Part shown: piece after piece, positions 1 through 19,315 of the stretch
How positions within the stretch are numbered: the stretch's first letter is position 1
How the letters are laid out: each line of letters begins with the position of its first letter
Source of the DNA: Flavobacteriia bacterium
Lineage (GTDB): Bacteria; Bacteroidota; Bacteroidia; Flavobacteriales_D; Crocinitomicaceae
DNA length: 45,849 bases
Direction of reading: 5' to 3'
Assembly: GCA_947463445.1 (NCBI GenBank)
Contig: CANHRS010000012.1
Coordinates: 1 to 45,849 of the forward strand
The notes under the pieces: model-generated
Told to the model about the DNA's origin: nothing
The model's input: only the letters and a program-made list of their open reading frames with translations
Databases searched by the model: none
Position numbers and translations under genes: made by a program

Positions 1-651
1 CAGGAATTTGCATCCCTTATTTTTTCCGAAGCGTTTGATTTGGATTTTCAATTGAGAAATATTTTTATTTCTGCTGAAATAGAAGCAGGAGAATCCCCTT
101 TGTCTGTAATTTCTGTAAAAATTCACCACTTACTAGAATCTTTAATCAATCAATTTCAAAAGAAAATAGATAAAAAAGGATTGAAGTTAACGTGGAAAAA
201 CACCTTAGATGTAAACCAAATAATTAAAACAGATGCTGAAAAATTACATTTGGTTTTGAGTAATTTACTTGCAAATGCAATACAATTTAATGCCGAGGGA
301 GGTACCATTGGAATTGATAGTTTTTTAGAAAATGAGTTACTAGTGCTAAAAGTGAGAGACGCTGGTATCGGTATAAGTAAAGATCAACAAGAGAAAATAT
401 ACGATCGTTTTTATCAAATAGAAGAAGGTTCTACAAAAACCTATGGAGGACATGGTTTAGGATTATGTATCACAAAAGCACTTTTGGAAATTTTGGAAGG
501 TACAATTCAATTGAAGAGTGAATTAGGACAAGGCACAGAGTTTACGTTGACGATTCCTAATTTGGATGTAAACACCTCCAACGAAGCAACTTTTTCTTCA
601 GATGGAAATGATTTTCTGTTTGAAAATGATGATGACGATATGTTATTTTAA
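1..651 (+). CDS. Sensor histidine kinase, C-terminal part (5' truncated by window edge)
   Basis: The frame is open to base 1, so only the last 216 residues are visible. They cover the end of a HisKA dimerisation helix (an 'EIEAGE' stretch) followed by a complete HATPase_c domain. The N box reads LHLVLSNLLANAIQFN, the G1 box DAGIGI, and the G2 box GGHGLGLCI. The protein ends in an acidic tail (NDFLFENDDDD). By family knowledge this is a bacterial sensor kinase that autophosphorylates on histidine. The phosphorylated histidine and the sensor region lie outside the window. The ATPase is of the ordinary PAS-kinase type, not CheA. It is the first visible gene of a same-strand run with cheD, cheB and the receiver genes, so it may phosphorylate those receivers (inference). 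The internal TTG at base 40 is not a likely start. Confidence 0.9.
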   Translation, partial: QEFASLIFSEAFDLDFQLRNIFISAEIEAGESPLSVISVKIHHLLESLINQFQKKIDKKGLKLTWKNTLDVNQIIKTDAEKLHLVLSNLLANAIQFNAEGGTIGIDSFLENELLVLKVRDAGIGISKDQQEKIYDRFYQIEEGSTKTYGGHGLGLCITKALLEILEGTIQLKSELGQGTEFTLTIPNLDVNTSNEATFSSDGNDFLFENDDDDMLF

Positions 652-707
652 TTAGGAACTAATATTTAAACAAATTGGAACTTTTACTCAATAAACAAAA
701 GGTAAAA

Positions 708-1169
708 ATGGACGAAGAGTTAGGTAAACACTATTTATATCCTTCTGCATTATTTGCGGAGAAAAAACCGTATTTAGTGGATACTGTTTTGGGTTCTTGT
801 GTTGCCGTTTGTTTATTTGATACCCGATTGAAAATTGGAGGCATCAATCATTACATGCTCCCACTGTGGAATGGTAATGGATTAGCATCTCCAAAATTTG
901 GTAATATAGCAACTGAAAAATTGATTGAAAAAATGCTGCGAAATGGATCTAATACTTCAGATCTTATCGCAAAAGTATTTGGTGGAGCAAATCAAATGAA
1001 TAGTTCCATGGAAATCGGCGCGCGAAATATTGAAATAGCGAAAGAAGTATTAGCAAATCACGGGATTAAAATTATTGCTGAAAATGTTGGTGGATCTGTA
1101 GGTAGAAAATTAAAATACCATACGGGAACCGGACAAGTGATGATGAAATTTTTGACTAAAAGCGTGTAA
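708..1169 (+). CDS. cheD: CheD, chemoreceptor glutamine deamidase
   Basis: This 153-residue protein matches the CheD family, which deamidates receptor glutamines and in Bacillus works with CheC. The catalytic cysteine is in LGSCVAV and the catalytic histidine is 17 residues later in GGINHYMLP, the same spacing as in known CheD proteins. A threonine sits just before the cysteine segment (VDTVLGSC), and the FGGA and NVGG segments are also typical. I chose the ATG at 708. An in-frame TTG at 675 would add 11 residues and cannot be excluded. It sits between the kinase and cheB, with its stop two bases before the cheB ATG, so translation of the two is probably coupled. No chemoreceptor substrate is visible in the window, so its real target is unknown. 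Confidence 0.92.
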
Positions 1170-1171
1170 TT

Positions 1172-2257
1172 ATGGATAAAGTAAAAGTACTTATTGTAGA
1201 TGATTCGGCTTTGGTTAGACAAACATTGGTTTCCATTTTAGAAACGGATCCAATGATAGAAATTATCGGTGTTGCTGCGGATCCTTTTATTGCTGTTGAA
1301 AGAATCAAAGAATGCAAACCAGATGTTATTACTCTAGACATAGAAATGCCACGTATGGATGGACTAACTTTCCTCAAGAAGTTAATGTCTCAGCATCCAA
1401 TTCCAGTGGTTGTTATTTCTACCTTGACAGAAAAAGGGACAGATTCTGCATTATTAGCATTAGAATATGGAGCGGTAGAAGTCATCGCTAAGCCAAAAGT
1501 AAATACCAAAGCATTATTAGAACAATCCACCATTGAATTATGCGGTAAGGTAAGGGCAGCAGCACAAGCACTAATCCGTAAAAAATCAAATCTAGGTTCG
1601 GATCGTACAAGTAATGGTGTTGAACCTAAATTGTCTGCGGATGCCATTATTAGCAAAGCCAAATATGCCAGCATGATTCAAACAACAGAATCAGTTATTG
1701 CAATTGGTGCATCTACTGGTGGAACAGAAGCTTTACGTATCGTTTTAGAAGAGTTCCCTGCTGATAGCCCTGGTATTGTTGTCGTACAACACATGCCGGA
1801 AATGTTTACCAAACAGTTTGCTAAACGATTAAATGATCTGTGTAAAGTGACGGTAAAGGAAGCGGAAAATGGCGACAAAGTAATTCGTGGTCAAGTACTT
1901 ATTGCTCCAGGTGGAAAACACATGTTAGTTAAACGTAGCGGTGCCATGTACCACGTAGAAATTATGGATGGTCCATTAGTAAATCGTCATCGCCCTTCGG
2001 TAGATGTATTATTTAGATCTGTAGCTCGTTTCGCTGGAAAAAATGCCGTTGGAGCAATTTTAACTGGAATGGGGGATGATGGAGCTGTGGGGATGTTAGA
2101 AATGAAAGAAGCAGGTGCATATACAGTTGCACAAGATGAAAAAACTTGTGTTGTTTTCGGGATGCCAAAAGAGGCAATCAAACGTGGAGGTGTAGAAAAA
2201 GTTGTACCTTTATCGGAAGTAACAAAAACACTTTTAAGTAAAGTTAAAGTATTGTAG
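1172..2257 (+). CDS. cheB: CheB, protein-glutamate methylesterase/deamidase response regulator
   Basis: This 361-residue protein has the standard two-domain CheB layout. The N-terminal receiver (about residues 4-120) has acidic residues D10/D11, phosphoacceptor D56 in TLDIEMP, and the conserved lysine in AKPKV. The C-terminal methylesterase domain (about 170-361) has its catalytic serine in IGASTGG (S181), histidine in VVQHMP, and aspartate in TGMGDDGA. CheB removes methyl groups from receptor glutamates when its receiver is phosphorylated. It follows cheD by two bases and precedes the CheY-like gene by 25 bases. No CheR methyltransferase is seen in the window, so a partner must be elsewhere or the modification chemistry may differ. 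The family call is very secure; the pathway it serves is inferred only from its neighbours. Confidence 0.96.
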
Positions 2258-2282
2258 AACAAATATTTAAAACTATTTATAC

Positions 2283-2645
2283 ATGAAAAAAGTATTAATT
2301 GTAGATGATTCGTTATATATGCGAACGTTAATTAATTCAGCATTAATTGCAACAGGGAGATACGAAGTTATTGGTCAAGCAGGAACTGGAAGCCAAGGGA
2401 TTGAATTAGCATTGGAACACGAACCAGATTTAATCACTATGGACAACATATTGCCAGACATGATTGGTATCGATATTGTTAAAGAATTACGTGCAGAGGG
2501 TCTTACTTCCAAGATTATCATGGTGAGTGCTGTTGGACAAGACGATGTTGTGGAAGAAGGAAGAAGTAATGGAGCTGATGATTATTTAGTTAAACCATTT
2601 ACTGCGGAGATTTTGGTGGAACGTATCGATAATTTGTTCGCCTAA
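2283..2645 (+). CDS. CheY-like single-domain response regulator
   Basis: A 120-residue stand-alone receiver with every key residue present: acidic pair D8/D9, phosphoacceptor D54 (LITMDNILP), switch serine S82 (IIMVSAVGQ) and lysine K104 (YLVKPF). It has no output domain, so it acts by protein contact, as CheY does. The downstream CheC-like phosphatase is the natural candidate to dephosphorylate it, and the upstream histidine kinase is the natural donor. Both links are inferred from gene order. Because no flagellar or CheW/MCP genes are seen, its downstream target is unlikely to be a flagellar motor. The downstream SpoIIE/Sia switch is a plausible target. Confidence 0.93.
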   Translation: MKKVLIVDDSLYMRTLINSALIATGRYEVIGQAGTGSQGIELALEHEPDLITMDNILPDMIGIDIVKELRAEGLTSKIIMVSAVGQDDVVEEGRSNGADDYLVKPFTAEILVERIDNLFA

Positions 2646-2665
2646 TCAATTAAGTTGCAATACAC

Positions 2666-3286
2666 ATGTTAGAATTAAAAACAAAAGAGCTAGAATTAGC
2701 AAGAGACATTATTTCTCAAGGACTTGTTAAAGCAGCTGAATCGTTGTCTTTCTTTATGAATGAAACGATTACTTTGCAAGAGTTTGACCAAGAGAAACAA
2801 TTAAGTTCTCCACCACCTGAAATAAATAAAAAAGACCAAACAAATATTCAATTGCTTATTACCAAGGTGATAGGAGAATTAAATGGTGTATGTTGTTTGA
2901 TTTTTTCGGAAGAAGAAGCGAATCAATTACGTCAATCTGCATTACCTCCTGAAATTTTAAATAGTCCGGAAATGATGGCAGAAATGAGTGATGGGATTTT
3001 ACTGGAAGTAGATAATATTATTTCAGCATCCGTAATCACGCAATTTTCCAATATCTTAAAAGTAAAAATTCATGGCGGTGTACCTGCTTTACGTAAAGTA
3101 AATTATGCCGAGTTGGAAGAATATATTCATCATGAAATTAGTAATGAATTATATTTGATTAGTTTTAAAACAAGTTTCAAATCTTCGCATGTAAGTTTTG
3201 CTCCTGAGTTTGTGTGGTTGTTTGATGATTCATTCATTCAAAACATAAAAAACTTAGCAACAAAAGAGGAAGAAGGAACAAATTAA
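2666..3286 (+). CDS. CheC/CheX-family phosphatase-like protein
   Basis: This 206-residue protein resembles CheC, which dephosphorylates CheY~P and in other bacteria also binds CheD. The second CheC-type active-site helix is preserved: GILLEVDNII gives E-x2-N, followed exactly 22 residues later by the family's conserved proline (HGGVP). The first helix aligns as RDIISQGLVKAAESLSFFM, where the usual E..N pair is replaced by D..S, so only one catalytic centre appears intact. GELNGVCCLIFS is the typical core strand. It sits between the CheY-like receiver and the SpoIIE phosphatase, with gaps of 20 and 13 bases. I am confident of the fold family and less so about CheC versus CheX. Activity toward the upstream receiver is inferred. 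Confidence 0.8.
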   Translation: MLELKTKELELARDIISQGLVKAAESLSFFMNETITLQEFDQEKQLSSPPPEINKKDQTNIQLLITKVIGELNGVCCLIFSEEEANQLRQSALPPEILNSPEMMAEMSDGILLEVDNIISASVITQFSNILKVKIHGGVPALRKVNYAELEEYIHHEISNELYLISFKTSFKSSHVSFAPEFVWLFDDSFIQNIKNLATKEEEGTN

Positions 3287-3299
3287 TTTAATCAAGCAC

Positions 3300-4625
3300 A
3301 TGAATCAAGAAGTATTAAAAGTAGTAATTGTAGAAGATGACCTTTCGGTTTCTACCTTACTCACGGAATATGCAACAAGTTGGGGATTTGAAGTACTTCA
3401 TGTAGCAATAGATGGTCAAAACGCTAAAGAAGCGATTGAATTAACTCAACCAAACGCCTTGTTTATTGATGCTGAGATAGGTGGCGCAATACAAGCAAAA
3501 GAATTGGTGGAAACTATTCGTAAAACCTCGGATGCATTAATTTTCTTTTTGGTTGACGCAACAAAAGAGGATGTAATCGCTGAATTAAGTACTTTACATC
3601 CAAATGGATTTATACACTTACCTTTAGAGCCAGCAATAGTTAAGAATACAATCGAAGCTGCTTGGAACACATTTTTAGTTTGGAATAAAAAAGTGCAAAA
3701 AATGCATGGTGAACTCGAGATGTCTTCGATGCAGATTCAAGAATTGACCGAAACAAATGCACATTTGATAACTGCTACGTTTAGAGAAAGAGCATTAAAA
3801 CAAGAGTTAGAAGCTACCAAAATATTAATTGAAGCCCAAGCAAAAAAGATTCAAGACAGTATCAATTATGCGAAAAGTATTCAAAACTCCATTCTTCCTA
3901 AAGAATTAGTTTTGAAAGATTTATTTCCAGATTCTTTTTTATTGTTTCGTCCCAAAGACATCGTTAGTGGGGACTTTCCATTTATTTATGCGAAAGACGA
4001 TATGGTGTATGTGGCAGCAGTAGATTGTACAGGACATGGAGTTCCAGGTGCATTATTGTCACTCATCGGTTCGCTATTAATTCAAGAAATTGTGCATTAT
4101 GGAAATCCTTCACCGGCTGTATTGCTCGACAAATTGCACGATGCGGTTGTGAAAACATTAAGACAAGGGCAAGAAGGAGGAGAAAATGAACGTGATGGAA
4201 TGGATGTCGGTATGTGTTTATTTAATCGTGTAACTGGAGAATTCCAATTTTCGGGCGCACATCGACCTTTATATATAATTCGAAATAATGCGAAAGCAGA
4301 CGAAGAATTAGAAGAATTAAAAGGAGATAAATATCCAATTGGTGGTGTACAGTATAGAGGTAGAGAATCCTTTACCAATATAAGTACACAACTAGAAAAA
4401 GGAGATCGTGTATTTGTATGTTCAGATGGTTATCCAGATCAATTTGGCGGACCAGATGCTACGGATTTGAAAAAAATAGGTCCAAAACGAATTCGTCAAA
4501 TTTTGATTGAAAATAAAGCTGCAAAAATGAATGTTGTGCAAGACGCATTGTCTAATTTCTTTGAATCTTGGCAAGGAGTTCACAAGCAAATGGATGACGT
4601 TTTATTTATAGGAATAGAATACTAG
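3300..4625 (+). CDS. Degenerate receiver + coiled coil + SpoIIE/PP2C serine phosphatase (SiaA-like role)
   Basis: The 441 residues divide into three parts. Residues 5-125 form a receiver with E12/D13/D14 and D57, but the switch Thr/Ser is replaced by V85 and the conserved lysine by L107. Residues 130-195 look like a coiled-coil linker ending in the NYAKSIQNSILP segment common before Bacteroidota SpoIIE domains. Residues 200-441 are a PP2C/SpoIIE phosphatase with metal-binding aspartates in SGDF, DCTGHG, SDGYPDQ and MDDVLF. SpoIIE phosphatases remove phosphate from anti-sigma-antagonist-type proteins. Here the SiaB-type kinase and SiaC-type substrate follow directly, matching the SiaA-SiaB-SiaC order known from Pseudomonas. 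Pseudomonas SiaA is a membrane protein with a sensory domain; here that input is replaced by a cytoplasmic receiver. Confidence 0.9.
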   Translation: MNQEVLKVVIVEDDLSVSTLLTEYATSWGFEVLHVAIDGQNAKEAIELTQPNALFIDAEIGGAIQAKELVETIRKTSDALIFFLVDATKEDVIAELSTLHPNGFIHLPLEPAIVKNTIEAAWNTFLVWNKKVQKMHGELEMSSMQIQELTETNAHLITATFRERALKQELEATKILIEAQAKKIQDSINYAKSIQNSILPKELVLKDLFPDSFLLFRPKDIVSGDFPFIYAKDDMVYVAAVDCTGHGVPGALLSLIGSLLIQEIVHYGNPSPAVLLDKLHDAVVKTLRQGQEGGENERDGMDVGMCLFNRVTGEFQFSGAHRPLYIIRNNAKADEELEELKGDKYPIGGVQYRGRESFTNISTQLEKGDRVFVCSDGYPDQFGGPDATDLKKIGPKRIRQILIENKAAKMNVVQDALSNFFESWQGVHKQMDDVLFIGIEY

Positions 4626-4650
4626 CCGAACGAAATATAATTAATTAGCA

Positions 4651-5268
4651 ATGGAAGAATTAAAAAATACAGGAGCAACAAATAGATCAGAGTACATGAA
4701 TTTTGTTGTGAAGTTTCATAAAATGATGTTAGACAAAAAAATAACATTGATATATGAAGGGGAAGTAACACAAGAAATTACGAAGGCTTTTACTTCGATG
4801 ACAGAAAAAAATCTGGATAAAGTGGAAGAAGATGGTAAGATTAAGAAAAAAGTGTACCATGTGATGGTAGAGTGTTTGCAAAATATTTCGAAACATGCAG
4901 ACGACGATGCACAAACTGCTTCGGATAGTTTGGAAGAAGGTTTGGCGAAAACAGGAATTTTCTTAATTGGGAATGACCAAAGTCAATATTTTATCACCTC
5001 AGGAAACGGTATTTCCAATGAAAATATTCCTGCTTTAAAAGGGTTAATTGATAATATTAATTCGTTAAATCAAGACGAGTTAAAACAATTACACAAAGAA
5101 AAAATGCGCGAAACTGCAATTTCAGATAAAGGAGGAGCAGGACTAGGATTTATTGATATTGCACGTAAAACAGGAAATCCGTTGGAATATCATTTTGAGC
5201 CAATTGATGAGAATACTTCTTTTTTCTTGTTAAAAACCATTATTAGTAGAAATTCAAAAGAACAATAA
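4651..5268 (+). CDS. SiaB-family protein kinase (DUF6272-type)
   Basis: This 205-residue GHKL-type ATPase matches the SiaB family, which phosphorylates SiaC on a threonine. The N-box-like helix reads KVYHVMVECLQNISKHA, and the glycine-rich lid reads DKGGAGLGFIDIARKTG. There is no histidine-kinase dimerisation domain, as expected for an anti-sigma-type kinase. It lies between the SpoIIE phosphatase (25 bases) and the SiaC-type substrate (21 bases), so kinase, phosphatase and substrate are encoded side by side. The partner-switch role is known for the family. The identity of the final output in this organism is not visible, because no diguanylate cyclase (SiaD) follows. Confidence 0.88.
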   Translation: MEELKNTGATNRSEYMNFVVKFHKMMLDKKITLIYEGEVTQEITKAFTSMTEKNLDKVEEDGKIKKKVYHVMVECLQNISKHADDDAQTASDSLEEGLAKTGIFLIGNDQSQYFITSGNGISNENIPALKGLIDNINSLNQDELKQLHKEKMRETAISDKGGAGLGFIDIARKTGNPLEYHFEPIDENTSFFLLKTIISRNSKEQ

Positions 5269-5289
5269 TATTAAATTTTATATATCGCT

Positions 5290-5664
5290 ATGGAAGCATT
5301 AATTATTAAAAAAACAGAAGATACGCCAGCAGTACATTTAGATAAAAACGAAGGGGTTTTTGAATTTTCCGGTAAATCTTTACCAGAAGATGTTACCTCT
5401 TTCTACGGACCAGTTTTTGATTGGATCGCGGAATATGGTGAAGCGCCAAATTCTTCTACCAAAGTAGTTTTTAAAATGACTTACTTTAATACCGCTTCAT
5501 CAAAAATTATTTTAGATATTTTAATGAAATTGGAAGAATTACACGAGGCTGGTAATGAAGTTATGATTGAATGGCATTATGAAGAAGATGATGAGGATAT
5601 GCAAGAAGCGGGAGAGGAATATTCTGAAATCGTAGAGGTACCGTTTTCGTTTATGGAAGATTAA
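5290..5664 (+). CDS. SiaC-family regulatory phosphoprotein (DUF1987)
   Basis: This 124-residue protein matches the SiaC/DUF1987 family, STAS-like switch proteins toggled by phosphorylation. The family's phospho-threonine falls in KMTYFNTASSK at T68, the same number reported for Pseudomonas aeruginosa SiaC. Unphosphorylated SiaC there binds and activates the cyclase SiaD to promote aggregation and biofilm. Here the next gene is instead an ABC transporter with a TerB-like domain, 143 bases downstream and beyond a hairpin, so the partner may differ (inference). The acidic C-terminal stretch (EEDDEDMQEAGEE) is notable. It is the last gene of the signalling operon. Confidence 0.88.
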   Translation: MEALIIKKTEDTPAVHLDKNEGVFEFSGKSLPEDVTSFYGPVFDWIAEYGEAPNSSTKVVFKMTYFNTASSKIILDILMKLEELHEAGNEVMIEWHYEEDDEDMQEAGEEYSEIVEVPFSFMED

Positions 5665-5686: not shown

Positions 5687-5718
5687 AATGCTAGATGGTT
5701 TTACAACGATCTAGCATT
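5687..5718. terminator. 10-bp perfect inverted repeat after the Che-Sia operon
   Basis: AATGCTAGAT (5687-5696) pairs perfectly with ATCTAGCATT (5709-5718) around a 12-nt loop. It lies 23 bases after the SiaC-type stop codon. There is no strong T tract, so it may be a weak terminator, an attenuator or a 3'-end processing hairpin. It could set the expression ratio between the signalling genes and the transporter/adhesin genes. Confidence 0.45.
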
Positions 5719-5807
5719 TCCTGTATATTAGAGCTGTTGTTAGATTAAACAAAACAATAATTTACTAAAGTGTTTTTGCACAGTAAGTTAATACAATTTT
5801 TTAAAGC

Positions 5808-8800
5808 ATGTCTGAAGAAATATTAAAAGCACTTATGCAATTATTTGCAATCATCGCAAAACAAGATGATGGTGCTTCACAAAGTGAACGAAAATTTGTA
5901 GAAGAATTTTTAGTTTTTCAATTAAGTGAAGATTTAGTAAAAGAATATCTTGCCCAATACGATGAATTTGTAGGTCCAGTTGAGCTAGATGAAGATGGAA
6001 ATCACGTGAAGAAATTAACTTCCGTGAAAGATTCTGTGCGAACTTTAGGTATATGTAAAAAGATTAATAAAACGCTTACGCAAAAACAAAAAGTAATTGT
6101 TCTTGTTCGTTTATTAGAATTGATTGCTGCAGATCGTTCGTTTTCAGAACAACGTATGGCAATTATCCATACAGTTTCGGAAGTTTTTAAATTTGAAGAT
6201 TCAGAATTCCAGGCAATTGTAAATTTTTGTGTAAAAGAAACAGAAGAACTTAAATCGGTGCCAGAAATCATGGTTATTGATAGTTCGGATGAAACGTGGA
6301 ACTTTGCGTGTAAACATATTTCTTCCAAATTAGACGGAAATATCGTTATTCTAAAAGTTATTTCGGAAGATTTATACTTCTTAAAATATACTGGAAAAAG
6401 TGATATTTTCTTAAATGGATTACCTGTGAATCCAATGCGGATGTATTTATTCGCTGCTGGTAGTACGGTAAAAGTACCTGGTGGTAAACCAATCTTTTAT
6501 TCGGATGTGGTTGCTAATTTTATGGCAGATAAGGATGGACTTAAATTATCATTTCACGCGGATAATGTAGCATTCACATTCCCAAATGGTACTGTTGGAT
6601 TACGAGATATCAATATTTCGGAGGGATCTGGTAAACTGATAGGTTTAATGGGTGCTTCTGGTGCAGGAAAAACGACATTGTTAAATGTACTTTCTGCCAT
6701 AGAACCGGTTACCGAAGGACAAGTATTAATTAACGGAATTAATATTCATACCGAAAAAGAAAAGGTGAAAGGCTTAATTGGTTACATCCCACAAGATGAT
6801 TTACTCATTGAGGAACTAACCGTTTTTGAAAACCTATTTTATAACGCAAAATTATGTTTTAAAGACCTTACTGATTCAGAAATTACAGATTTGGTAATGA
6901 AGGTGTTGAATAACCTTGGTTTGGCGGAACGTAAAGATTTAAAGGTTGGATCTCCACTTCAAAAAACGATTTCAGGTGGACAAAGGAAGCGATTAAATAT
7001 CGCATTAGAATTAATTCGGGAGCCTGCAGTTTTATTTGTAGATGAACCAACTTCTGGTTTATCTTCCCGAGATTCGGAGAATGTAATGGATTTATTGCGC
7101 GAACTTACCTTAAAAGGAAAGTTGATTTTTGTAGTTATTCACCAACCTTCCTCAGACATTTACAAAATGTTTGATAAAATAATTTTCCTGGATGTAGGTG
7201 GTTATCAAATTTACTATGGTAATCCAGTTGAGGCAGTTGTATATTTTAAAAAAGCGGACCATCAAGTAAATGCAGATCAAGGGCAATGTTTAATTTGTGG
7301 GAATGTAAACCCAGAAATTATTTTCAATATCATTGAGGCAAAAATTGTCGATGATTACGGAAATTACACGAAGAATCGCAAAGTAACTCCTGAACAATGG
7401 AAGCAACTGTATGATAAACATGCGATGTATACCCGTTCCGAGGATATCAAAGAGTTGCCTTCATTTAGCTTAAGTATACCATCTTGGTTAAAACAGACCA
7501 AAATTTTTGCTACTAGGGATTTATTTTCCAAGATTAGTAACAAACAATACCTATGGATTAACTTATTAGAAGCACCATTGTTGGCGCTTGTCCTTTCGTA
7601 CATTATTCGGTATGTTGAAATTCCTGGGACAGACTATATTTTTAGAACAAATGAAAATATTCCTGCCTTTATCTTCATGAGTATCATCGTAATGCTCTTT
7701 ATTGGTTTGACCGTTTCTGCGGAAGAAATTTTTAGAGATCAGAAAATACTAAAGCGTGAAAAATTCTTGAATTTAAGTAAGTCGAGTTATTTAATTTCTA
7801 AAATAGGCATCTTATTTACTATATCTGCTATACAATCTTTCCTATTTGTATTGATTGGCAATACGATAGTTGGTATTTCAGGAATGTACTGGGATTATTG
7901 GTGGATGTTGTTTACTGTTTCGTGTTTCGCGAACCTATTAGGACTTAATATTTCTGCTAGTTTTAATTCTGCAGTAACGATTTACATTTTAATACCAATT
8001 ATTGTAATTCCACAGATGATTTTGGGGGGAGCAATGTTTAGTTTCGATAAATTAAATGATTCCATTGGTGGAGGCAAACAAGTACCACCAATGATAGCTG
8101 AAATAATGGTTTCCCGTTGGGCGTATGAGGGTTTAATGGTGGATCAATTTAAAAATAATCCATTAGAGCGCGAAGTGTTCGACTTTGACCAAAAGGAAAG
8201 CATGTGTAGTTACAAACAGGCATTTTTCCTACCTAAATTACAAGAATATACGGATGAATGTATCTCATTAATTCATGTGATTGGAGATTCTGCAGATAGC
8301 GTCATGAAAGATCGTTTATGGGTAATTCGTAAATCCTTAGAATCAGAGAAAAAATTAGTACCTAGAGTAGCCATCGAAAATATTGAAAAATTTAATTTTA
8401 ATGAATTTGATGACGCAGAAGGGGAACGTTTAAAAGGAATTCTTGATGAGTTAATGAATTATTACACGGAAATTTTTAATGTAGTAAATGGTAAAAAAAT
8501 GATGTTTTTAACCAAATTACAAGATAGTCCAAGTAAACAAAAAGAATATGTACAAGCAAAAGATGATTATTTGAATGATTATCTAACTGAAATTGTTACA
8601 AAATCTACCGAGAAGGATAAAATAAGTATACAAAATCATCAAATCATTCAAAAGAAAGATCCGATTTTTATGGATCCATCAACGGAGAGTGTAATTAGTT
8701 TCAGAACGCATTTCTTCTCCCCAACCAAAAATTTATTTGGTTCATTGGTAGGAACATTTGGATTTAATATTTTGATTATTTGGGCTTTTACATGCTTTTT

Positions 8801-8864
8801 ATACATTGTTTTATATTACGATGGACTTAAAAAAGCATTGCAATTATTTGGGAATAAAAATTAA
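5808..8864 (+). CDS. TerB-like domain + ABCG-type ABC transporter (ATPase-permease fusion)
   Basis: This 1018-residue protein starts with a TerB-like helical region (about 1-145), followed by an FHA-like or linker region (about 150-250). The ABC ATPase spans about 255-490: Walker A GASGAGKTT near 281, Q-loop YIPQDD, signature ISGGQRKR near 387, Walker B FVDEPTSGL near 409, and switch histidine VIHQPSS. An ABC2-type permease follows, with about five membrane segments between 583 and 745. A large hydrophilic, mostly helical segment (about 750-965) comes next, then a last membrane helix near 975-1000. ATPase-before-permease order with one polypeptide per half transporter is typical of the ABCG/White group. 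Substrate is unknown. The giant T9SS adhesin gene begins 18 bases later, so the two are probably co-transcribed. The TerB-like module could be the docking point for the upstream switch (inference). Confidence 0.85.
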   Translation: MSEEILKALMQLFAIIAKQDDGASQSERKFVEEFLVFQLSEDLVKEYLAQYDEFVGPVELDEDGNHVKKLTSVKDSVRTLGICKKINKTLTQKQKVIVLVRLLELIAADRSFSEQRMAIIHTVSEVFKFEDSEFQAIVNFCVKETEELKSVPEIMVIDSSDETWNFACKHISSKLDGNIVILKVISEDLYFLKYTGKSDIFLNGLPVNPMRMYLFAAGSTVKVPGGKPIFYSDVVANFMADKDGLKLSFHADNVAFTFPNGTVGLRDINISEGSGKLIGLMGASGAGKTTLLNVLSAIEPVTEGQVLINGINIHTEKEKVKGLIGYIPQDDLLIEELTVFENLFYNAKLCFKDLTDSEITDLVMKVLNNLGLAERKDLKVGSPLQKTISGGQRKRLNIALELIREPAVLFVDEPTSGLSSRDSENVMDLLRELTLKGKLIFVVIHQPSSDIYKMFDKIIFLDVGGYQIYYGNPVEAVVYFKKADHQVNADQGQCLICGNVNPEIIFNIIEAKIVDDYGNYTKNRKVTPEQWKQLYDKHAMYTRSEDIKELPSFSLSIPSWLKQTKIFATRDLFSKISNKQYLWINLLEAPLLALVLSYIIRYVEIPGTDYIFRTNENIPAFIFMSIIVMLFIGLTVSAEEIFRDQKILKREKFLNLSKSSYLISKIGILFTISAIQSFLFVLIGNTIVGISGMYWDYWWMLFTVSCFANLLGLNISASFNSAVTIYILIPIIVIPQMILGGAMFSFDKLNDSIGGGKQVPPMIAEIMVSRWAYEGLMVDQFKNNPLEREVFDFDQKESMCSYKQAFFLPKLQEYTDECISLIHVIGDSADSVMKDRLWVIRKSLESEKKLVPRVAIENIEKFNFNEFDDAEGERLKGILDELMNYYTEIFNVVNGKKMMFLTKLQDSPSKQKEYVQAKDDYLNDYLTEIVTKSTEKDKISIQNHQIIQKKDPIFMDPSTESVISFRTHFFSPTKNLFGSLVGTFGFNILIIWAFTCFLYIVLYYDGLKKALQLFGNKN

Positions 8865-8882: not shown

Positions 8883-11800
8883 ATGAGCAACAGACATCTA
8901 CATACATTTATTTTAAAGAGAAAAATTGCTTTTTTAGTAGTTTTATGTAGTGTGTTTGGTCGATATAATACCGTTTTTTCTCAATGTACACCGGTGATAG
9001 AATACAACACAACTTCCGGAACATTGAGCGGCTGTGCACCATTTACAGTTTCTTTTAAAGACCCTAATAATACATCCACCCGTTTGTGGGATTTTGGCAA
9101 TGGTAAAACTTCTGGTTCTCAAAATCCAACACACGATTTTGAAGCTGGTGTTTTGGGAGATACGACATATACTGTTACTCTAACAAAAAATTGTAATGGA
9201 GGTGTTTCTACAAATGTTAAAGTTACTGTATTTGGAAAACCAAAGGTTGATTTTATTGCAGATACAACTTCGGTATGTGCTATCAACGATCAAATAAAAT
9301 ATAAATCCTTAGGTGATCTTGGTGTTTATTTGTGGAATTTCGGTGATAATACTTCTTCTACGCTGCAAAATCCTACAAAAACATATAATACTGGAGGTAG
9401 TTATACTGTGTCATTGAAAGTCACTAACATTCATGGATGTGAAGATACGAGAACAAAGGTAAAGTATATGACTGTTAATTCTTTACCTAGTCCTGATTTT
9501 ACCTTAAGTAAATATTCTGGATGTGTTCCTTTACCTGTATCTTTTATCAATACTACAGATACCTCAGTTGTACAAATAAAAAAATGGGAATGGAATTTAA
9601 GTAACGGTGGTGGTATTGATAACAATTTTGAACCTTCTACTGTAGTATATACTAGTCCTAGTACTAAATTGCTAAGTTTAACAGCAACAAGTATTTTAGG
9701 CTGTAAAAGTAGTTCTTCCATACAAGTGAATGCTATATCCTCTCCAACAGCAGGATTTACCATTTCCCCAATAGAAATTTGTTCTAGTGATTCTTTACTA
9801 GTTACTTATACTGGTAGCGCAGGTGTAAATGCGAATTTTGCTTGGAGCTTAAATGGAGGAGTTGGAAATCCTGGAATAGGAAGGGGACCACATTGGATAA
9901 ATTGGGAAAAAGGAGGAGTTAAAACGATAAATCTTACTGTAACGGATAGTACGTGTTCTGCGAATTCTTCAAAACAAACTACGGTATTAGTAAGTCCTGT
10001 GATCACTTTTACGGCTTCTAATGATACCATATGTACTGGGGATGAGGTTACATTTACAACAACACCAGCATCCTTAGTGGATTACAAGGTATACAAAAAT
10101 GGCGCTTTGTATCAGACTATGGTGGAAAATGAGTTTTCCACAACTACTATTGCTTCAGGGGATAACTTCTACGTAGTGGCAAGTGATGTAAAAGGATGTA
10201 AATCTAAAAAAAGTAATACAGAAAAATTAATTGTAAAAACTAGACCTTCCGTTTCTTTATTAAGTACGGATGCAGATAATATAATTTGCTCGGGTGATTT
10301 AGTAACTTTTAGTGGTACCCCAACCAATTATTCGAGTTACACGTTTTACAATTTTAGTCAACCATTACAAATAGGGGTTTCTACGACATTTAACACTTCT
10401 TCTTTAACGGATAATGACTCCATCTTTGTAGAAGCTACAAATTTCAATGGTTGTGCGAAAATGTCTAGTAATGCATTTGTGATGCATGTAAAACCTCCTT
10501 TACCAAAACCGATTGTAAATTGTGGTGCTTCTACAGATAGTCAAGTGTCTTTTGTATGGGGGGAAATTTCAGGTGCAGCAGGATATGAAGTAAGTGTAAA
10601 TGGCGGAGCCTTCCAATCTCCAAGTTCGGGTCCTAATGGGTTAAGTCATGTATTTGGCGGATTGTCTAGTGGAGATTATACCAAAATTGTTGTAAAGGCT
10701 CTTGGTTCATTTTCGTGTGCAACAAGTTTAGTATCTAAAGAAAAAGCATGTATTTCTAAAGTATGTACCCCATTTTCGATGAAATATGTTCCGTTTGATA
10801 CAATTTGTAATGGTGAAACGGTGAAGTTACGGGTAGACAATATTTCTGCTACAAACTATTCTGTAGCTTGGAATGGTGGCACACCTGGAAAAGATACTAC
10901 GTTTACCTTTAAACCTTCCGTGGATAAAGAAATTACTGCGGTAATAAAGGATTCAGCGCAATTATCCTATTGTTCAACATTTGATGCAACATTCCGAATC
11001 AAGGTGCATCCATTGCCTGTAGTTACATTAGAATCAAGTTTGAAGTCAATAAATTGTAAGGGAGATGTAGCTAAGTTAAAGGCTACTCCTGCCAATTATG
11101 ATTTTTACTCGTTTTACAGCGGAAATGAGTTACTCCAATCAGGTTGGAAAAATTATTATACCTTAAAAAATGTAAAAAATGGTGTTCCATTAACTGTTGT
11201 AGCAGAAAACTTTGGCTGTAAAGCGAGCTCTGTCAATACAATTACGAACACGGTAATACAACCATTAGCACAACCAGTAGTTAATTGTGGAGGTTCGACA
11301 ACTTCTTCGATGGAATTTACATGGGATCCAATACCAAATGCAATTGGGTATGAAATTAGTGTTGATGGAGGTAATTGGTCAACACCATCTGCTGGAAGTA
11401 CAGGCTTAAAGCATTTGTTGAATGGCCTAACGCCAGGAACAGCAGCTTATGTATCGGTGAGAGCTTTAGGAGCAACAGTTTGTGGTAATTCCAAAGTGTC
11501 CGTGCAAGCGAGTTGTTTTACCAATCCATGTACCGCAATTTCGTATGCTACTCCTACTAATGTTACTATTTGTCAAGGCACAACCGCAAATTTATCGGTT
11601 ACGGATATTACAATCCCTAAATATGATGTTTCTTGGAATAAATCAAATTATTCTAAATCAACAAATTACAAAGTTAAACCTACAAAAGACACCAATATTA
11701 CGGTCAACATACGTAATTCTTCCGAGTTAAATTGTCCATATGCAACAAAGTATATTCGTATAGACGTTATTGAACAACCAAATGTATCTCTAACAATCTC

Positions 11801-14800
11801 ACCAACTTCGAATTGTTTTGGTGATTCGTTAAGTTTGATTGCTACACCTGTCAACTATGAATCTTATCGATTTTTTAATGGATCATCCTTACTTTATGCA
11901 GGGTATAAGAGTACATTTAAATCCGACAAATTAAAATCAGGATCGCAGTTGAAAGTAGTAGCACGGAATGGTAGTTGTGTAGATACCTCAACTGTTTTAC
12001 CGTTGGTTGTTTCGATACCCCTAGAAAAACCAGTAGCAAATTCTGGATATATTGATTCTGCGTCCATTGATTTTGTATGGGATTCAATTTCAAATGCAAC
12101 TGGGTATATGGTAAGTGTCAACAATACGCCATATGTAATCCCTTCTTCTGGAAGTGTAGGTTTGCATCATACGGTCAAAGGACTTGGAAAAGGTCAATTT
12201 GTGAGTTTTAAAGTAATAGCACTTGGAAGTTCTGCATGTGGCAATAGCCCAGAATCAGATACGATACTAAGGCATACAACCTATTCGCCGGATTCTATAT
12301 GTACTGCAATTAACTTTAATAAAATAGCGAATCCTTCTATCTGTGAAGGAGATAGTGTACTACTTTCTATCCAAAACATTAATATTCCAGTATATAAAAC
12401 CTTCTGGGAAAATAAAGCAAAAGGAAATGAAACTAGCTATTTATTTGATTTAACGTATTCCGATACTATTTCTGTTAGTGTAAAAAAAACCAACGAACCA
12501 GAATGTCCAGCTGTAACCAAATTTATTAAGGTGACGGTTAACCCTAAGCCAGTTGTAGATATTTTTTCGTCAATTTTACAAGATAGTATTTGTGAAGGGG
12601 AAGCTATTACATTTTCTGCAATTCCAAATGGATATGCGCAATACGATTTTAGACAAAAAAATACACTTCTGCAATCTTCCAACGGGAATGAGTTCGATGT
12701 GTCTACGGTTTCCGCTTCCTTGGATTTGACTGTTTTGGTAAAAGATGAAATTGGTTGTACTGCACTTAGTGATGTGTTTAAAATGACGATGGTCGAGAAA
12801 CCTAAAATATCCATTACAAGTAATACGGTAAATGGAGGTATTTGTATCGGAAAAGATTTGAAGGTAACAGCAAGCCCAAATACGTATAAAAAATATAATT
12901 TTTATGCAAGTGGTGTTCAGGTTCAGTCTAGTAATAGCAGTTTATATTCCCGACTTGCAATTCAATCTGGTTATTCGATTACTGCAAATGCAATTAATGC
13001 TTTTGGTTGCATAGGTGAAAAAACAGCAGCTCTTCCTATACAAATGTTTCAATTGCCAAAAGTTTCAATTCTTTCTTCCGATATAGATAATAGCATCTGT
13101 GATGGAGATAATTATTCAATTACTGCATCCCCAAGTAATCTTACTAAATATGTGTTTTATGAAGATGCCAAACCGGTTCAAACTTCTGCATCAAATTTAA
13201 AAACATATGCTTCATTGAATGTAAATAAATCCATTCATCTTATTGCTACGGATAGTAACACATGCGAAAGTAAAAGTTCAGATACATTAAAAGTAGTTGT
13301 TAACCCAATTCCTGCCATGACGAGTACATCTTCATTAACAATGTGTAGTGGATTTGAAGTCAACATACCATTAAAAAGTAATTTACCAGCAACTTTCACT
13401 TGGAAAGCAACTAACAACCCAAATATTATAGGTGAGAGTGTTACGCTACAAACTACAGCAACGTTGAAAGATTCATTGAAGAATAAAAATATCTTAAAAG
13501 ATAGTATTTTATATACGGTGGTGCCAACATCCATTCCGGGTTGCGTCGGTCAACCACAAACAGTGAAAATTTATGTAAACCCGAGTCCTGAAATAGCTTA
13601 TATCGTAGATACTATCTGTAGCGGCACTTCATTTGATATTCAACCGAAGAATGGAATACCGTTAGGAAACATAATTCCTTCTAATACTAATTATACATGG
13701 AGTTTACCACAAATATCCGCACCAAGTTCCATAACTGGCGCAAGTGCTCAAGTTATGGGAGTGCCAAAAATTACCCAAACACTTATTAATGAAACTAATA
13801 CTATTAAAAAAGTATCTTATTCAATTACGCCAAAATCAGGATTAAGTGTAGGTTGTACAGGCAAAACATTTACGCTAGATGTATACGTTAATCCGACCCC
13901 AGCTATCCCTTCTTATAGTTCGGATTCTGTTTGTAGTCAAACTACTTTTAGTAAATTACCAATAAATGCACAACCTACAAAAGCCACCATTGTTCCTTCA
14001 AATACGATGTATACCTGGACTACTCCAAATATTCAACCTACAAACAGTGTGGGTGGTGCTTTGGCTCAATTGACAGGTGTTACTAGTATTTCACAAACCT
14101 TGGTAAATGACTCTTCATTCCCAGTTAAACTGGGGTATGTTGTTACACCAAAAGCTGGTAGTTGTATTGGAAAAGATTTTACAGTGAACGTAGCGCTGCT
14201 AGCAATTCCAAATCCAGTTGTTAGCTCTGATGTATTTGGTATTTGCAAAGGGGCCTCGGTACAAATTACGACACAATTAGATAATGAAACAAATTTCCCA
14301 AATACACAATATTCATGGAGTGATGGTCAAAAGAAAAAAAATATTTCGGTAAAACCATCGATTACTACTAATTATATTTTAACTGCCACAAGTAATGGCT
14401 GTACCAGTAAAGCAGATACAATTCAGATATTCGTAGAAGTAAATGTCCCAAAAGCCGATGCAGGAAAAGATTTTATTATATGTAGATACGATACTGCTAC
14501 TTTGCAAGCTACAGGAGGTAAATCGTATGAATGGGAGGATCAATTCGGAATCGTAAACAAAAATTCAGCTTCACCAAAAGTTGCCCCTATTGTTACTACT
14601 TCCTATAAAGTGCATGTAAAGAATGATTATTGTGAATCAGTAGATGAGATTGAGGTCGTAGTAGATCGTTGTTTAAAGGAACTTCAGACTAAAATACCAC
14701 AAATTTTCACACCGAATGGGGATAATGCGAACGATGCATTTACTATAATTGACATCGATTATTTTACTAAAAGTAACTTGATTGTTTTTAACCGTTGGGG

Positions 14801-14951
14801 GAATATTGTGTATCAGGCTGCACCTTATGTAAATTCGTGGGATGGTAAAAATGAAAATGGAGACGAGCTTCCAGATGGAACCTATTATTATTCCTTAGAT
14901 TTAGGAAATGGCCATGAACCATATAAAGGGTTTGTTGTAATAACGCGATGA
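8883..14951 (+). CDS. Giant secreted PKD/Ig/FN3 surface protein with T9SS type B sorting domain
   Basis: This 2022-residue protein begins with a signal peptide (hydrophobic core IAFLVVLCSVFG, cleavage near FSQ|C). Two PKD domains follow (about 38-118 and 119-200; WDFGNG and WNFGDN motifs), then Ig-like modules. An approximately 252-residue supra-repeat is anchored by three FN3-like segments starting near 542 (PIVNCGAST), 797 (PVVNCGGST) and 1048 (PVANSGYID). Two related PKD-like repeats lie near 1565-1675 and 1675-1780. The last 85 residues form the gliding-motility-associated type B CTD (FTPNGDNANDAF, FNRWGN, WDGKNENG, LPDGTYYY, FVVITR). By family knowledge it is exported through the T9SS and displayed on the surface with help from a PorP/SprF protein, which is the next gene. 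It is probably an adhesin; the ligand is unknown. Confidence 0.93.
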   Translation: MSNRHLHTFILKRKIAFLVVLCSVFGRYNTVFSQCTPVIEYNTTSGTLSGCAPFTVSFKDPNNTSTRLWDFGNGKTSGSQNPTHDFEAGVLGDTTYTVTLTKNCNGGVSTNVKVTVFGKPKVDFIADTTSVCAINDQIKYKSLGDLGVYLWNFGDNTSSTLQNPTKTYNTGGSYTVSLKVTNIHGCEDTRTKVKYMTVNSLPSPDFTLSKYSGCVPLPVSFINTTDTSVVQIKKWEWNLSNGGGIDNNFEPSTVVYTSPSTKLLSLTATSILGCKSSSSIQVNAISSPTAGFTISPIEICSSDSLLVTYTGSAGVNANFAWSLNGGVGNPGIGRGPHWINWEKGGVKTINLTVTDSTCSANSSKQTTVLVSPVITFTASNDTICTGDEVTFTTTPASLVDYKVYKNGALYQTMVENEFSTTTIASGDNFYVVASDVKGCKSKKSNTEKLIVKTRPSVSLLSTDADNIICSGDLVTFSGTPTNYSSYTFYNFSQPLQIGVSTTFNTSSLTDNDSIFVEATNFNGCAKMSSNAFVMHVKPPLPKPIVNCGASTDSQVSFVWGEISGAAGYEVSVNGGAFQSPSSGPNGLSHVFGGLSSGDYTKIVVKALGSFSCATSLVSKEKACISKVCTPFSMKYVPFDTICNGETVKLRVDNISATNYSVAWNGGTPGKDTTFTFKPSVDKEITAVIKDSAQLSYCSTFDATFRIKVHPLPVVTLESSLKSINCKGDVAKLKATPANYDFYSFYSGNELLQSGWKNYYTLKNVKNGVPLTVVAENFGCKASSVNTITNTVIQPLAQPVVNCGGSTTSSMEFTWDPIPNAIGYEISVDGGNWSTPSAGSTGLKHLLNGLTPGTAAYVSVRALGATVCGNSKVSVQASCFTNPCTAISYATPTNVTICQGTTANLSVTDITIPKYDVSWNKSNYSKSTNYKVKPTKDTNITVNIRNSSELNCPYATKYIRIDVIEQPNVSLTISPTSNCFGDSLSLIATPVNYESYRFFNGSSLLYAGYKSTFKSDKLKSGSQLKVVARNGSCVDTSTVLPLVVSIPLEKPVANSGYIDSASIDFVWDSISNATGYMVSVNNTPYVIPSSGSVGLHHTVKGLGKGQFVSFKVIALGSSACGNSPESDTILRHTTYSPDSICTAINFNKIANPSICEGDSVLLSIQNINIPVYKTFWENKAKGNETSYLFDLTYSDTISVSVKKTNEPECPAVTKFIKVTVNPKPVVDIFSSILQDSICEGEAITFSAIPNGYAQYDFRQKNTLLQSSNGNEFDVSTVSASLDLTVLVKDEIGCTALSDVFKMTMVEKPKISITSNTVNGGICIGKDLKVTASPNTYKKYNFYASGVQVQSSNSSLYSRLAIQSGYSITANAINAFGCIGEKTAALPIQMFQLPKVSILSSDIDNSICDGDNYSITASPSNLTKYVFYEDAKPVQTSASNLKTYASLNVNKSIHLIATDSNTCESKSSDTLKVVVNPIPAMTSTSSLTMCSGFEVNIPLKSNLPATFTWKATNNPNIIGESVTLQTTATLKDSLKNKNILKDSILYTVVPTSIPGCVGQPQTVKIYVNPSPEIAYIVDTICSGTSFDIQPKNGIPLGNIIPSNTNYTWSLPQISAPSSITGASAQVMGVPKITQTLINETNTIKKVSYSITPKSGLSVGCTGKTFTLDVYVNPTPAIPSYSSDSVCSQTTFSKLPINAQPTKATIVPSNTMYTWTTPNIQPTNSVGGALAQLTGVTSISQTLVNDSSFPVKLGYVVTPKAGSCIGKDFTVNVALLAIPNPVVSSDVFGICKGASVQITTQLDNETNFPNTQYSWSDGQKKKNISVKPSITTNYILTATSNGCTSKADTIQIFVEVNVPKADAGKDFIICRYDTATLQATGGKSYEWEDQFGIVNKNSASPKVAPIVTTSYKVHVKNDYCESVDEIEVVVDRCLKELQTKIPQIFTPNGDNANDAFTIIDIDYFTKSNLIVFNRWGNIVYQAAPYVNSWDGKNENGDELPDGTYYYSLDLGNGHEPYKGFVVITR

Positions 14952-15907
14952 GAAAACAAAATAAAAATAATCAGTTAGTAAAGCAATTCCTGTTGTTACT
15001 GGGTATTTTATTTTCTGTTTTTTACATAAACGCACAACAAGAACCAATGTATACCCAAAATAATTTTGATCGATTAACATTTAATCCGGCATATGCTGGA
15101 AGTTCTAATTGGATTGTAACATCGATAAAACACCGTAGTCAATTTGTTGGTTTAGAAGGCGGACCTGCGACGGATATTGTAACAATACATGCACCTTGGC
15201 AAGCACGTTCGGTTGGTTTTGGAGGAAAATTTGTTTCGGATCGTTTGGGTGCAACGACGCAAACAAGTGTGAGTGCTATTGGCTCCTACCATATAGGTTT
15301 GGGTAAAGGTAAAATGTCGGGAGGCATAGAATTTGGAATATTTAATCAAGCAATAGATTTTTCGACGCTATTTAAAAATGATAAGATCGATAATGCTATT
15401 CCACCAGGTAAAACTGCAAAAACAAGATTAGATGGAGCGTTTGGATTACAATACCAAACCAAAAATTATTTCCTTGGGTTTTCTGTACAACACTTATTTG
15501 GCGGATCTTTAAATTTCACAGATTTTGATAGATCTATTGTTGCTAATTTACATCGCCATTGGTTTCTTTCTGGTGGATATGTAAAAGACATAACGAAAAC
15601 ACTATCTGTTCAGCCCTGTTTTCTCCTAAAAAAAGTTGCAGGTGTACCAATGCAAGTGGATCTATATACCAATTTTATCTATCAGGATAAATATACGTTA
15701 GGTGTCGGCTACCGAACAGGGGATGCATTAACATTCGCTGCTAAAATCCACATTACTGATGCGATTCGTGTTTCCTATTCGTATGATTTTAGAATTTCTC
15801 CAATTGCTAAATATTCCGGTGCAGCTCACGAGTTTATGCTACGATATGGAATAAAATTATTACCGCCACAACAAATCAAAGAAATTAATCCTCGCTACTA
15901 TTTCTAA
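14948..15907 (+). CDS. PorP/SprF-family T9SS outer-membrane protein
   Basis: A 319-residue beta-barrel protein with a signal peptide (LLLLGILFSVFYINAQQ) and the diagnostic PorP/SprF opening: QEPMYTQNNFDRLTFNPAYAGSS, then VTSIKHRSQFVGLEGGP. SprF-like proteins are specific partners for the export or anchoring of type B CTD proteins. Its ATG overlaps the adhesin stop as ATGA, which strongly suggests translational coupling and a dedicated pair. The OmpA gene follows after three bases. I leave the symbol blank because Flavobacteriales genomes usually carry many PorP/SprF paralogues and this one cannot be assigned to core PorP or SprF. Confidence 0.93.
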   Translation: MRKQNKNNQLVKQFLLLLGILFSVFYINAQQEPMYTQNNFDRLTFNPAYAGSSNWIVTSIKHRSQFVGLEGGPATDIVTIHAPWQARSVGFGGKFVSDRLGATTQTSVSAIGSYHIGLGKGKMSGGIEFGIFNQAIDFSTLFKNDKIDNAIPPGKTAKTRLDGAFGLQYQTKNYFLGFSVQHLFGGSLNFTDFDRSIVANLHRHWFLSGGYVKDITKTLSVQPCFLLKKVAGVPMQVDLYTNFIYQDKYTLGVGYRTGDALTFAAKIHITDAIRVSYSYDFRISPIAKYSGAAHEFMLRYGIKLLPPQQIKEINPRYYF

Positions 15908-15910
15908 ATT

Positions 15911-18842: not shown

Positions 18843-19304
18843 ATGATAAACAAAATGAAACATAGTATTAATTATGCATCTTTTCTGAAAGGAATTAGCG
18901 CTTTGGCCTTTGTTTTTATAACTAGTTCTTTAAGCGCCCAATGCAGTTCCGATGCATTTATGGATAATTGTTCGAATGCATTAGATGATTTTAATTTTAT
19001 CAAATCGTTCGAATATACCAATCCAAAAGGAGGAGCAAAAGCAGAATACTCTTATGTTTTTTCAAAAGGATCCACCTATCGCATTGTTGTTTGTGATGAG
19101 AATATTGCAGGAAATAAAATGATTATTTCCCTGTATGATCGTAACCACAAATTGATTGCTTCTAATTTTGACAAGGCTTCCAAGAAAGTGTTCCCAGCAT
19201 TGACATACCCATGTTCTGCTACAGGAGTTTACTACATTGAATACTCGTTTCAGGGTGATAAAGCAAAATGTGGTATAAATATTTTAGGATTTACAAAAAA
19301 TTAA
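18843..19304 (+). CDS. Small secreted protein, unknown function
   Basis: This 153-residue protein starts with a signal peptide (ISALAFVFITSSLSAQ|C), preferably read from one of two close methionines, at residue 1 or 5. The mature part is about 115 residues with at least five cysteines (QCSSD, DNCSN, VVCDE, YPCSA, KCGIN). It has a beta-rich pattern: a segment like STYRIVVCDENIAGNKMIISLYDRNHKLI resembles PPC-type or C2-like secreted beta-sandwiches, but I cannot name the family. The cysteines suggest disulfide bonds in the periplasm or at the cell surface. It has its own promoter and is followed 11 bases later by a lipoprotein gene, so the two are probably a functional pair. Function is unknown. 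Confidence 0.75.
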   Translation: MINKMKHSINYASFLKGISALAFVFITSSLSAQCSSDAFMDNCSNALDDFNFIKSFEYTNPKGGAKAEYSYVFSKGSTYRIVVCDENIAGNKMIISLYDRNHKLIASNFDKASKKVFPALTYPCSATGVYYIEYSFQGDKAKCGINILGFTKN

Positions 19305-19315
19305 TAATTACACGG

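Follow-up and report, generated by a model that had tools for sequence, protein, structure and literature searches.

The chemosensory operon at the contig edge

The window, the whole stretch of DNA analysed here, spans 45,849 nucleotides of a Flavobacteriia bacterium genome (assembly GCA_947463445.1, contig CANHRS010000012.1, here contig C12). It starts at base 1 of its contig, a contig end. Its first eight genes join chemosensory (Che) proteins to a Sia-type partner switch, made up of a phosphatase, a kinase and a phosphoprotein:

1–651, plus strand: 3' part of a HisKA/HATPase protein (Pfam HATPase); its 5' part is the end of contig C37
675–1169, plus strand (ATG 708 is an alternative start): cheD, receptor deamidase family (Pfam CheD, 7.2e-27; solved CheD, entry 2f9z, 5.8e-24)
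1172–2257, plus strand: cheB, receiver plus methylesterase (Pfam, 4.4e-68; NCBIfam PRK00742, 448 bits against a cut-off of 293)
2283–2645, plus strand: cheY2, stand-alone receiver (Pfam, 2e-24; usual Asp, Ser and Lys sites by eye)
2666–3286, plus strand: CheC-like protein, probable phosphatase of phosphorylated CheY (second E-x2-N site kept, first altered)
3300–4625, plus strand: degenerate receiver, coiled linker and SpoIIE/PP2C phosphatase, SiaA-like (Pfam, NCBIfam)
4651–5268, plus strand: SiaB-family protein kinase, DUF6272 (NCBIfam SiaB_fam_kinase, 176 bits against a cut-off of 85)
5290–5664, plus strand: SiaC-family phosphoprotein, T68 conserved (Pfam SiaC, 3.1e-43; Pseudomonas aeruginosa SiaC structures, 3.3e-19, T68 aligned)

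Open reading frame (ORF) calls, Pfam and NCBIfam bear out that part of the original prediction which placed these eight genes, from a kinase end through a SiaC-type protein, closely spaced on one strand. When the called ORF starts are used, the gaps between them measure 2 to 25 bases, and the first becomes 56 bases if CheD begins at ATG 708.

The same prediction described the Che genes as an adaptation module without CheA, CheW or a methyl-accepting chemotaxis protein (MCP) in view. This describes the window but not the genome. Another contig of this genome, C37, is 24,294 bases long; it stops inside the same kinase gene and includes its first 90 codons. The last 14 bases of C37 are exactly the first 14 of the window, and the reading frame is continuous across this overlap. 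At its end C37 carries, in order, an MCP, a ParA-like ATPase, a STAS-like protein, CheY (CheY1), CheA, CheW, two further MCPs, CheR and the start of the kinase. The CheA has Hpt, dimer, HATPase and CheW domains; the STAS-like gene before cheY1 gives a weak match (E 0.027). The absence of CheA, CheW and MCP from the window is an assembly artefact. These proteins seem missing because the window begins at a contig edge, with C37 carrying them just upstream. Most of the genomes compared in this work come from metagenome binning; some are incomplete, others have names that are unreliable, and contig ends hide several cases. In one relative, G010, all the genes from MCP1 through the ATP-binding cassette (ABC) gene described below lie on one contig and one strand (G010:C13). 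CheA, CheW, MCP, CheR and CheB occur together in one genome and one cluster, both on C37/C12 and on G010:C13. The locus is thus not an orphan adaptation module. It makes up the later half of a full chemosensory operon, and its kinase input is therefore CheA. G010 also has an extra OprB-type porin gene between two chemoreceptor genes (L017:16974–18236), which is not at that place in the window's genome.

The kinase-like gene that spans the two contigs (L005:4023–4294 plus window 1–651) sits between cheR and cheD. The phospho-accepting His of HisKA, the mark of a sensor histidine kinase, is replaced by Asn (FLSNIRNEINNP, in the 5' part at the end of C37). Asn stands at this place in 14 of 14 genomes whose fetched DNA covered the H-box, and the aligned solved kinases have His. 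As a small positive control, the script used here also reported the expected His for ordinary kinases at three loci from two genomes (L024/L081 of G009 and L061 of G289). The His-less protein keeps its ATP site and the E-x-x-N adjoining the lost His, a pattern compatible with a phosphatase or scaffold role. A kinase fused to MCP/HAMP domains, as earlier envisaged, is rejected: the full gene in 12 loci encodes only 288 to 334 residues (ORF starts taken), and the small protein has no apparent membrane segment. It is neither CheA nor an MCP fusion. Its C-terminus is acidic (..DDMLF) and resembles the tails of MCP2 (..DNDFIEF) and MCP3 (..DDAFIDF), so a docking tail common to the three is possible.

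The receptors probably sense a redox or energy signal, because a receptor PAS domain matches the solved PAS domain of an aerotaxis receptor (3.2e-23). By our own count, made on MCP3 alone, MCP3 has 7 residues fewer per helix than the solved MCP I, which makes it 34H-like against 36H. The receivers of CheY1, CheY2 and CheB have intact sites by eye. CheC phosphatases are defined by two E-x2-N active sites. The CheC-like protein stays under the Pfam cut-offs (14.4 and 15.7 bits), and its family profile retrieves Thermotoga CheC among solved structures (E 3.3e-5). Its second site (E114, N117) is invariant in all eight aligned rows. The first varies, with E-x2-N only in the G015 row and Ser for Asn in the seven rows of the window's genus. 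Viral contigs searched for CheC gave no relative. In G015 a chemoreceptor with an N-terminal bacterial globin and PAS repeats adjoins CheW in the che-Sia cluster (L025:13440–16175).

The Sia proteins are family members below the NCBIfam equivalog cut-offs, at 156.7 of 700 bits for SiaA, 73.2 of 225 for SiaB and 96.5 of 150 for SiaC; they do reach the broader SiaB-family cut-off and Pfam SiaC. The phosphorylatable T68 is present in the aligned window SiaC, where it is the predicted phosphosite. In P. aeruginosa, SiaA and SiaB balance the phosphorylation of SiaC at T68 (PMC7647112), and this phosphorylation stops SiaC from binding its effector (PMC8457831).

The receiver on the window SpoIIE scores 27.5 bits (Pfam cut-off, 30.2). 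It keeps the Asp, with Val in place of Thr and Leu in place of Lys, and so lacks the residue set of a phospho-receiver. Thr/Ser and Lys are kept, by eye, in L074, L075, L077, L078 and G015, and the receiver is degenerate in L076, L080 and L087. The window SpoIIE looks chimeric, because its linker resembles the L074–L078 type and its phosphatase domain the G009 type. The linker (residues 119–182) is 62 to 67% identical to those of L074, L075, L077 and L078, 53 to 55% to those of L076 and L080, and 17% to that of G009, with which it is possibly unrelated. For the phosphatase domain, identity is 74% with G009 and 44 to 47% with L074–L078.

Further Sia-family genes lie elsewhere. A second SiaC/SiaB pair is convergent with a separate SpoIIE gene in G000 (G000:C11:22661–22996, L050), with a like layout in several members of the genus. 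Two tandem SiaC-family genes precede the ABC gene in L087 (14123–14880), the second divergent, and G015 and L074–L080 have an additional, divergent SiaB-family gene.

Recurrence of the che-Sia linkage

CheW is rare in the order, found in 12 of 299 sampled genomes, seven of which belong to the window's genus. The Sia cassette comes directly after cheC or cheR in eight of these 12 (G000, G001, G008, G010, G015, G283, G289 and G292; by contig number and coordinates, G283 corresponds to locus L077 and G292 to locus L075). For G000, G001 and G008, cheA and cheW lie on a second contig, broken off inside the cluster. A contig end conceals the arrangement in three more (G005, G011, G103).

A CheC-profile search of named genomes gave 21 loci, several from the same genomes; L088 and L090 end inside cheC, which leaves 19 readable. 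Twelve run on into SpoIIE-SiaB-SiaC (L070–L080 and L087; L078 ends inside SiaC). One more, L083, has a SiaC-family gene alone downstream, for a total of 13. Three from Aureispira (L084–L086) have a STAS protein downstream, after which L084 ends. In the other two, STAS, SpoIIE and an RsbW-like HATPase replace Sia (L085:11862–13507 and L086:11513–13132; Pfam on L085 only). The 12 linked loci do not amount to 12 independent events, because close relatives are among them.

Not every genome keeps the two modules together, and the exceptions count against reading them as a single system. G009 has its che and Sia modules on different contigs (1 of the 12 CheW genomes). G005 is probably unlinked as well, because its Sia cassette opens with a membrane-type SpoIIE like that of G009. 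Three readable CheC loci (L081, L082, L089) have no switch at all; L081 belongs to G009, whose Sia set is on another contig, and the script found no other che gene in L089.

Two che gene orders carry the cassette: STAS-Y-A-W-MCP-R-HK-D-B-Y-C as in the window, and MCP-W-Y-B-A-C-R as in G015 and L087. FastTree phylogenies were also compared, their disagreement being read from topologies and supports, without a formal conflict test. In the CheB tree the window's genus lies near L074–L078 (support 0.85). In a tree of SiaB, SiaC and the ABC protein its neighbors are the cassettes of G009, G005 and G006, which are not linked to che; it is far from L074–L080 and G015, which fall together (support 1.0). 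With two che arrangements and discordant CheB and Sia trees, the data suggest that the che-Sia pairing arose, or was replaced, more than once, and they argue for selection acting on the pairing.

Two independent systems could also share a promoter, or just lie side by side. G009 and L082, where they are unlinked, and the existence of the cassette without che genes fit such a chance neighbourhood. Same-strand adjacency in 12 of the 19 readable CheC loci, in two gene orders and with discordant trees, does not. By our estimate, chance would place a SiaC copy on the same strand and no more than 3 kb away well below 1% of the time, even in the SiaC-rich G015 (13 copies in 4.4 Mb). We regard chance as very improbable, and the comparison supports a link that forms one recurrent unit. 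The predicted che-Sia unit thus stands for most readable loci and fails in G009 and probably in G005. We consider it moderately probable that these genes make up the second half of a complete chemosensory operon, one that serves no flagellum and has a Sia-type partner switch as its output arm.

A candidate output in the cell envelope

The original prediction had the switch acting on something other than a flagellum and saw no SiaD. Both points are upheld by the genus. The flagellar export family PF00771, the only flagellar family searched, has no match over cut-off in 13 genus genomes (G012 has one weak fragment with stops), and a flagellar output is rejected. Because the Che genes and the Sia switch form one recurrent unit and flagellar export genes were not found, receptor-type adaptation could bear on SiaC, as predicted.

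GGDEF, the mark of the SiaD target, is likewise unmatched in the 13 genus genomes, several of them incomplete, and in all six of those whose completeness reaches 90%; among 14 control genomes, 8 have matches. SiaD and cyclic di-GMP (c-di-GMP) are rejected as output, and with no GGDEF match in 13 genomes SiaC hardly works through SiaD in this genus. SiaABCD-like control of c-di-GMP synthesis as in Pseudomonas, to which the SiaA-, SiaB- and SiaC-type proteins with T68 would point, is nearly refuted by these counts. The target of this sensory apparatus is probably a component of the cell envelope, not a swimming motor.

Downstream of SiaC the window continues as follows:

5808–8864, plus strand: TerB, small beta domain, ABC ATPase and ABC-2 membrane protein, the proposed SiaC effector (Pfam, AlphaFold2 (AF2)/Foldseek)
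8883–18739, plus strand: giant PKD-type protein (by eye), PorP/SprF family, OmpA-type (by eye); the less certain part
18843–19304, plus strand: P150, small exported protein (by eye), conserved in Sia-ABC cassettes (recurrence in other loci)
19268–20218, plus strand (likely start 19316): Lp300, lipoprotein (by eye), conserved in Sia-ABC cassettes (recurrence in other loci)

A TerB/ABC profile matches 192 of the 299 genomes. The comparison covered the 30 best-scoring loci and one further match, in G020, which has SiaC. Among the 30, SiaC precedes the TerB/ABC gene in 14 and is absent from the 1.5 kb available in 15; L103 starts inside the ABC gene and is unreadable upstream. Where the DNA reaches, Lp300 and P150 recur downstream in several families, in G015, L087, L074–L077, G004, G040, G125, G103, G020 and the window. 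In the window's genus the PKD-type giant, PorP/SprF and OmpA-type genes are interposed between the ABC gene and P150/Lp300. With GGDEF unmatched in the genus and the transporter a conserved neighbor, the TerB/ABC transporter with its two exported proteins is the best candidate, and a likely one, for the SiaC effector, through a contact that is predicted.

The same Sia-ABC cassette has another input in G040, G125, G009 and G006: CheR, a receiver-less CheB catalytic domain and a SpoIIE with PAS domains and a membrane-type N-terminus (by eye), joined in G125, G009 and G006 by a PAS/GAF receptor (domains by Pfam for G009, by similarity for G040, G125 and G006). Such cassettes lie at L122:175–12500, L123:210–12930 and L047:1351–13107, the latter two with the PAS/GAF receptor. 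All three have adaptation enzymes without CheA nearby, and G040 and G125 give no CheW match. In G004 a separate receiver and two tandem SpoIIE genes stand between cheC and siaB (L023:5305–7982), possibly an intermediate of an input swap.

These genes allow a signaling path to be proposed. CheR, CheD and CheB are the receptor adaptation enzymes. Receptors, probably through a redox or energy signal, would set CheA activity and be adapted by these three. CheA would phosphorylate CheY2, and the CheC-like protein, perhaps with the His-less kinase, would drain the phosphate. CheY2, or docking on the receiver-like domain, would then alter the SpoIIE phosphatase; either is favored in this genus over simple phosphotransfer, because the window SpoIIE receiver lacks the Thr and Lys. 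The phosphatase would oppose SiaB at SiaC T68. Dephosphorylated SiaC would bind and gate the adjoining ABC transporter with its two exported partners, instead of a diguanylate cyclase, and in the window's genus the surface-protein block may also come under this output. In its boldest form, the proposal makes the output of the array a Thr-phosphorylation switch that would open and close an envelope ABC transporter directly, with no part played by c-di-GMP, a sigma factor or a motor; the cassette would be re-plugged between inputs in evolution. CheA adapted by CheR/CheB/CheD would set SiaC T68 via a receiver-docked phosphatase, and SiaC would toggle the TerB/ABC exporter and the lipoprotein. The inputs exchanged would be of two kinds, complete che operons or, where CheA is missing, CheR/CheB enzymes next to a membrane PAS phosphatase. 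We put this forward tentatively, as a possibility on the doubtful side.

Besides the unlinked genomes, other observations have to be set against the operon reading. Direct CheA phosphotransfer to the window SpoIIE receiver is doubtful, since the receiver lacks the usual Thr and Lys. Sia-ABC cassettes are also found under other inputs, and in genomes where CheW gave no match. The beta domain of the ABC protein (AF2 mean predicted local distance difference test (pLDDT) 79.7) gave weak FHA matches in Foldseek (best E 0.15, none at E 0.001 or better) and no Pfam FHA at E 1. Because the FHA likeness is weak, a contact between the SiaC phospho-Thr and this domain is speculation. A Protein Data Bank sequence search with the TerB/beta-domain profile gave no match, and the AF2 model of Lp300 is too poor for use (mean pLDDT 56.8). 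The SiaC and ABC genes may be transcribed apart, because the best sigma-70-like match (5700–5729, 10/12) lies within the 143-base gap between them. Such matches are no commoner than in shuffled sequence (32 found, 38.6 expected), and the promoter/terminator scan found no terminator-like site in the gap.

The surface-protein block raises a different output. The che operon might steer gliding: CheY would act on the type IX/gliding motor, and surface proteins and the transporter would be served by the Sia cassette as a parallel second output. Consistent with this are GldM-family matches in 11 of the 13 genomes of the genus, 10 of them above cut-off, the PorP/SprF and giant surface-type genes directly downstream in the window's genus, and two stand-alone CheY proteins with sites intact by eye. 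It is at odds with L074–L077, L087 and G015, where Lp300/P150 come straight after the ABC gene with no surface-protein block there, and with the block adjoining che-unlinked cassettes in G009, G006 and probably G005. No gliding gene was noticed inside the che cluster, in which none was systematically searched for. We think this reading rather unlikely.

Alternatively, SiaC could control an anti-sigma or other transcription regulator elsewhere, the ABC transporter being merely a co-regulated neighbor. A known chemosensory-linked switch does target a sigma factor (CrsR/CrsA on RpoS in Shewanella; PMC9855816), Aureispira carries an RsbV/U/W-like set at the equivalent place, and the weak STAS-like gene precedes cheY1 (E 0.027). 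Against this reading, SiaC stays next to the ABC gene in different families and with different inputs. Besides the STAS-like genes and the Aureispira RsbW-like protein, the clusters show no annotated sigma or anti-sigma factor, for which no systematic search was made. Control of a regulator is, in our estimate, unlikely.

Elsewhere in the window, three consecutive similar small proteins (128–140 aa, by eye; 26456–27686, minus strand) lie upstream of a histidine kinase and LuxR-type response regulator (24570–26475, by eye).

Comparison with known partner switches

RsbV, RsbU and RsbW balance a kinase and a phosphatase on a STAS-like protein. A set of like composition replaces Sia in Aureispira (L085, L086); the window has SiaB and SiaC families instead of RsbW and RsbV. 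SiaABCD of P. aeruginosa (PMC7647112, PMC8457831) shares the PP2C phosphatase, the SiaB-family kinase and a SiaC with the same Thr68. The window's genus differs in giving no GGDEF match, and its phosphatase bears a receiver-like domain and sits within a che operon.

The che1 locus of Shewanella oneidensis (PMC9855816) combines cheA, cheY, cheW, cheR, cheD, cheB and MCPs with a partner switch, CrsR/CrsA, on RpoS. The likeness is of one locus with the same che genes and a partner switch, which is not that organism's chemotaxis-dedicated system. In place of CrsR/CrsA the window has separate receiver-SpoIIE, SiaB and SiaC proteins, with a SiaC-type phosphoprotein, and its cluster adds a CheC-like protein, a His-less kinase and an ABC transporter.

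Stage 1 of the F7 systems has the gene order STAS-cheY-cheA-cheW-cheW-aer2-cheR-cheD-cheB-mcpA-STAS-serine phosphatase (PMC7184735), starting from an anti-sigma antagonist. The order here is similar, from the STAS-like gene, cheY, cheA, cheW and a PAS receptor through cheR, cheD and cheB to a serine phosphatase. This comparison covers gene order and MCP3 receptor length. Here, in another phylum, there is a single cheW, a weak STAS match (E 0.027) and no second STAS; a CheC-like gene, a second cheY, the His-less kinase and a Sia-type kinase and phosphoprotein are added. Against the 36H receptors of stage 1, MCP3 is one heptad per helix shorter, 34H by our own count. The same source calls the function of stage 1 and 2 F7 systems 'yet-unknown'. 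The present cluster suggests a concrete, testable output from a similar gene order in another phylum, with SiaC T68 phosphorylation and the adjoining transporter as candidates.

A chemosensory operon linked to a partner switch has precedent, then, in Shewanella che1 and the ancestral F7 clusters, the nearest systems known. The open-access literature searched (supplements not covered) held no report of a che-Sia cluster. As far as these searches show, what is new is that the switch at this position is of Sia type, in a genus where neither flagellar export genes nor GGDEF were detected, together with the conserved His-less kinase, the putative transporter effector block and the swapping of inputs. 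For SiaB and SiaC, a candidate target emerges in this genus, whose genomes gave no GGDEF protein, and the natural input swaps offer material for studying how signaling modules are rewired.

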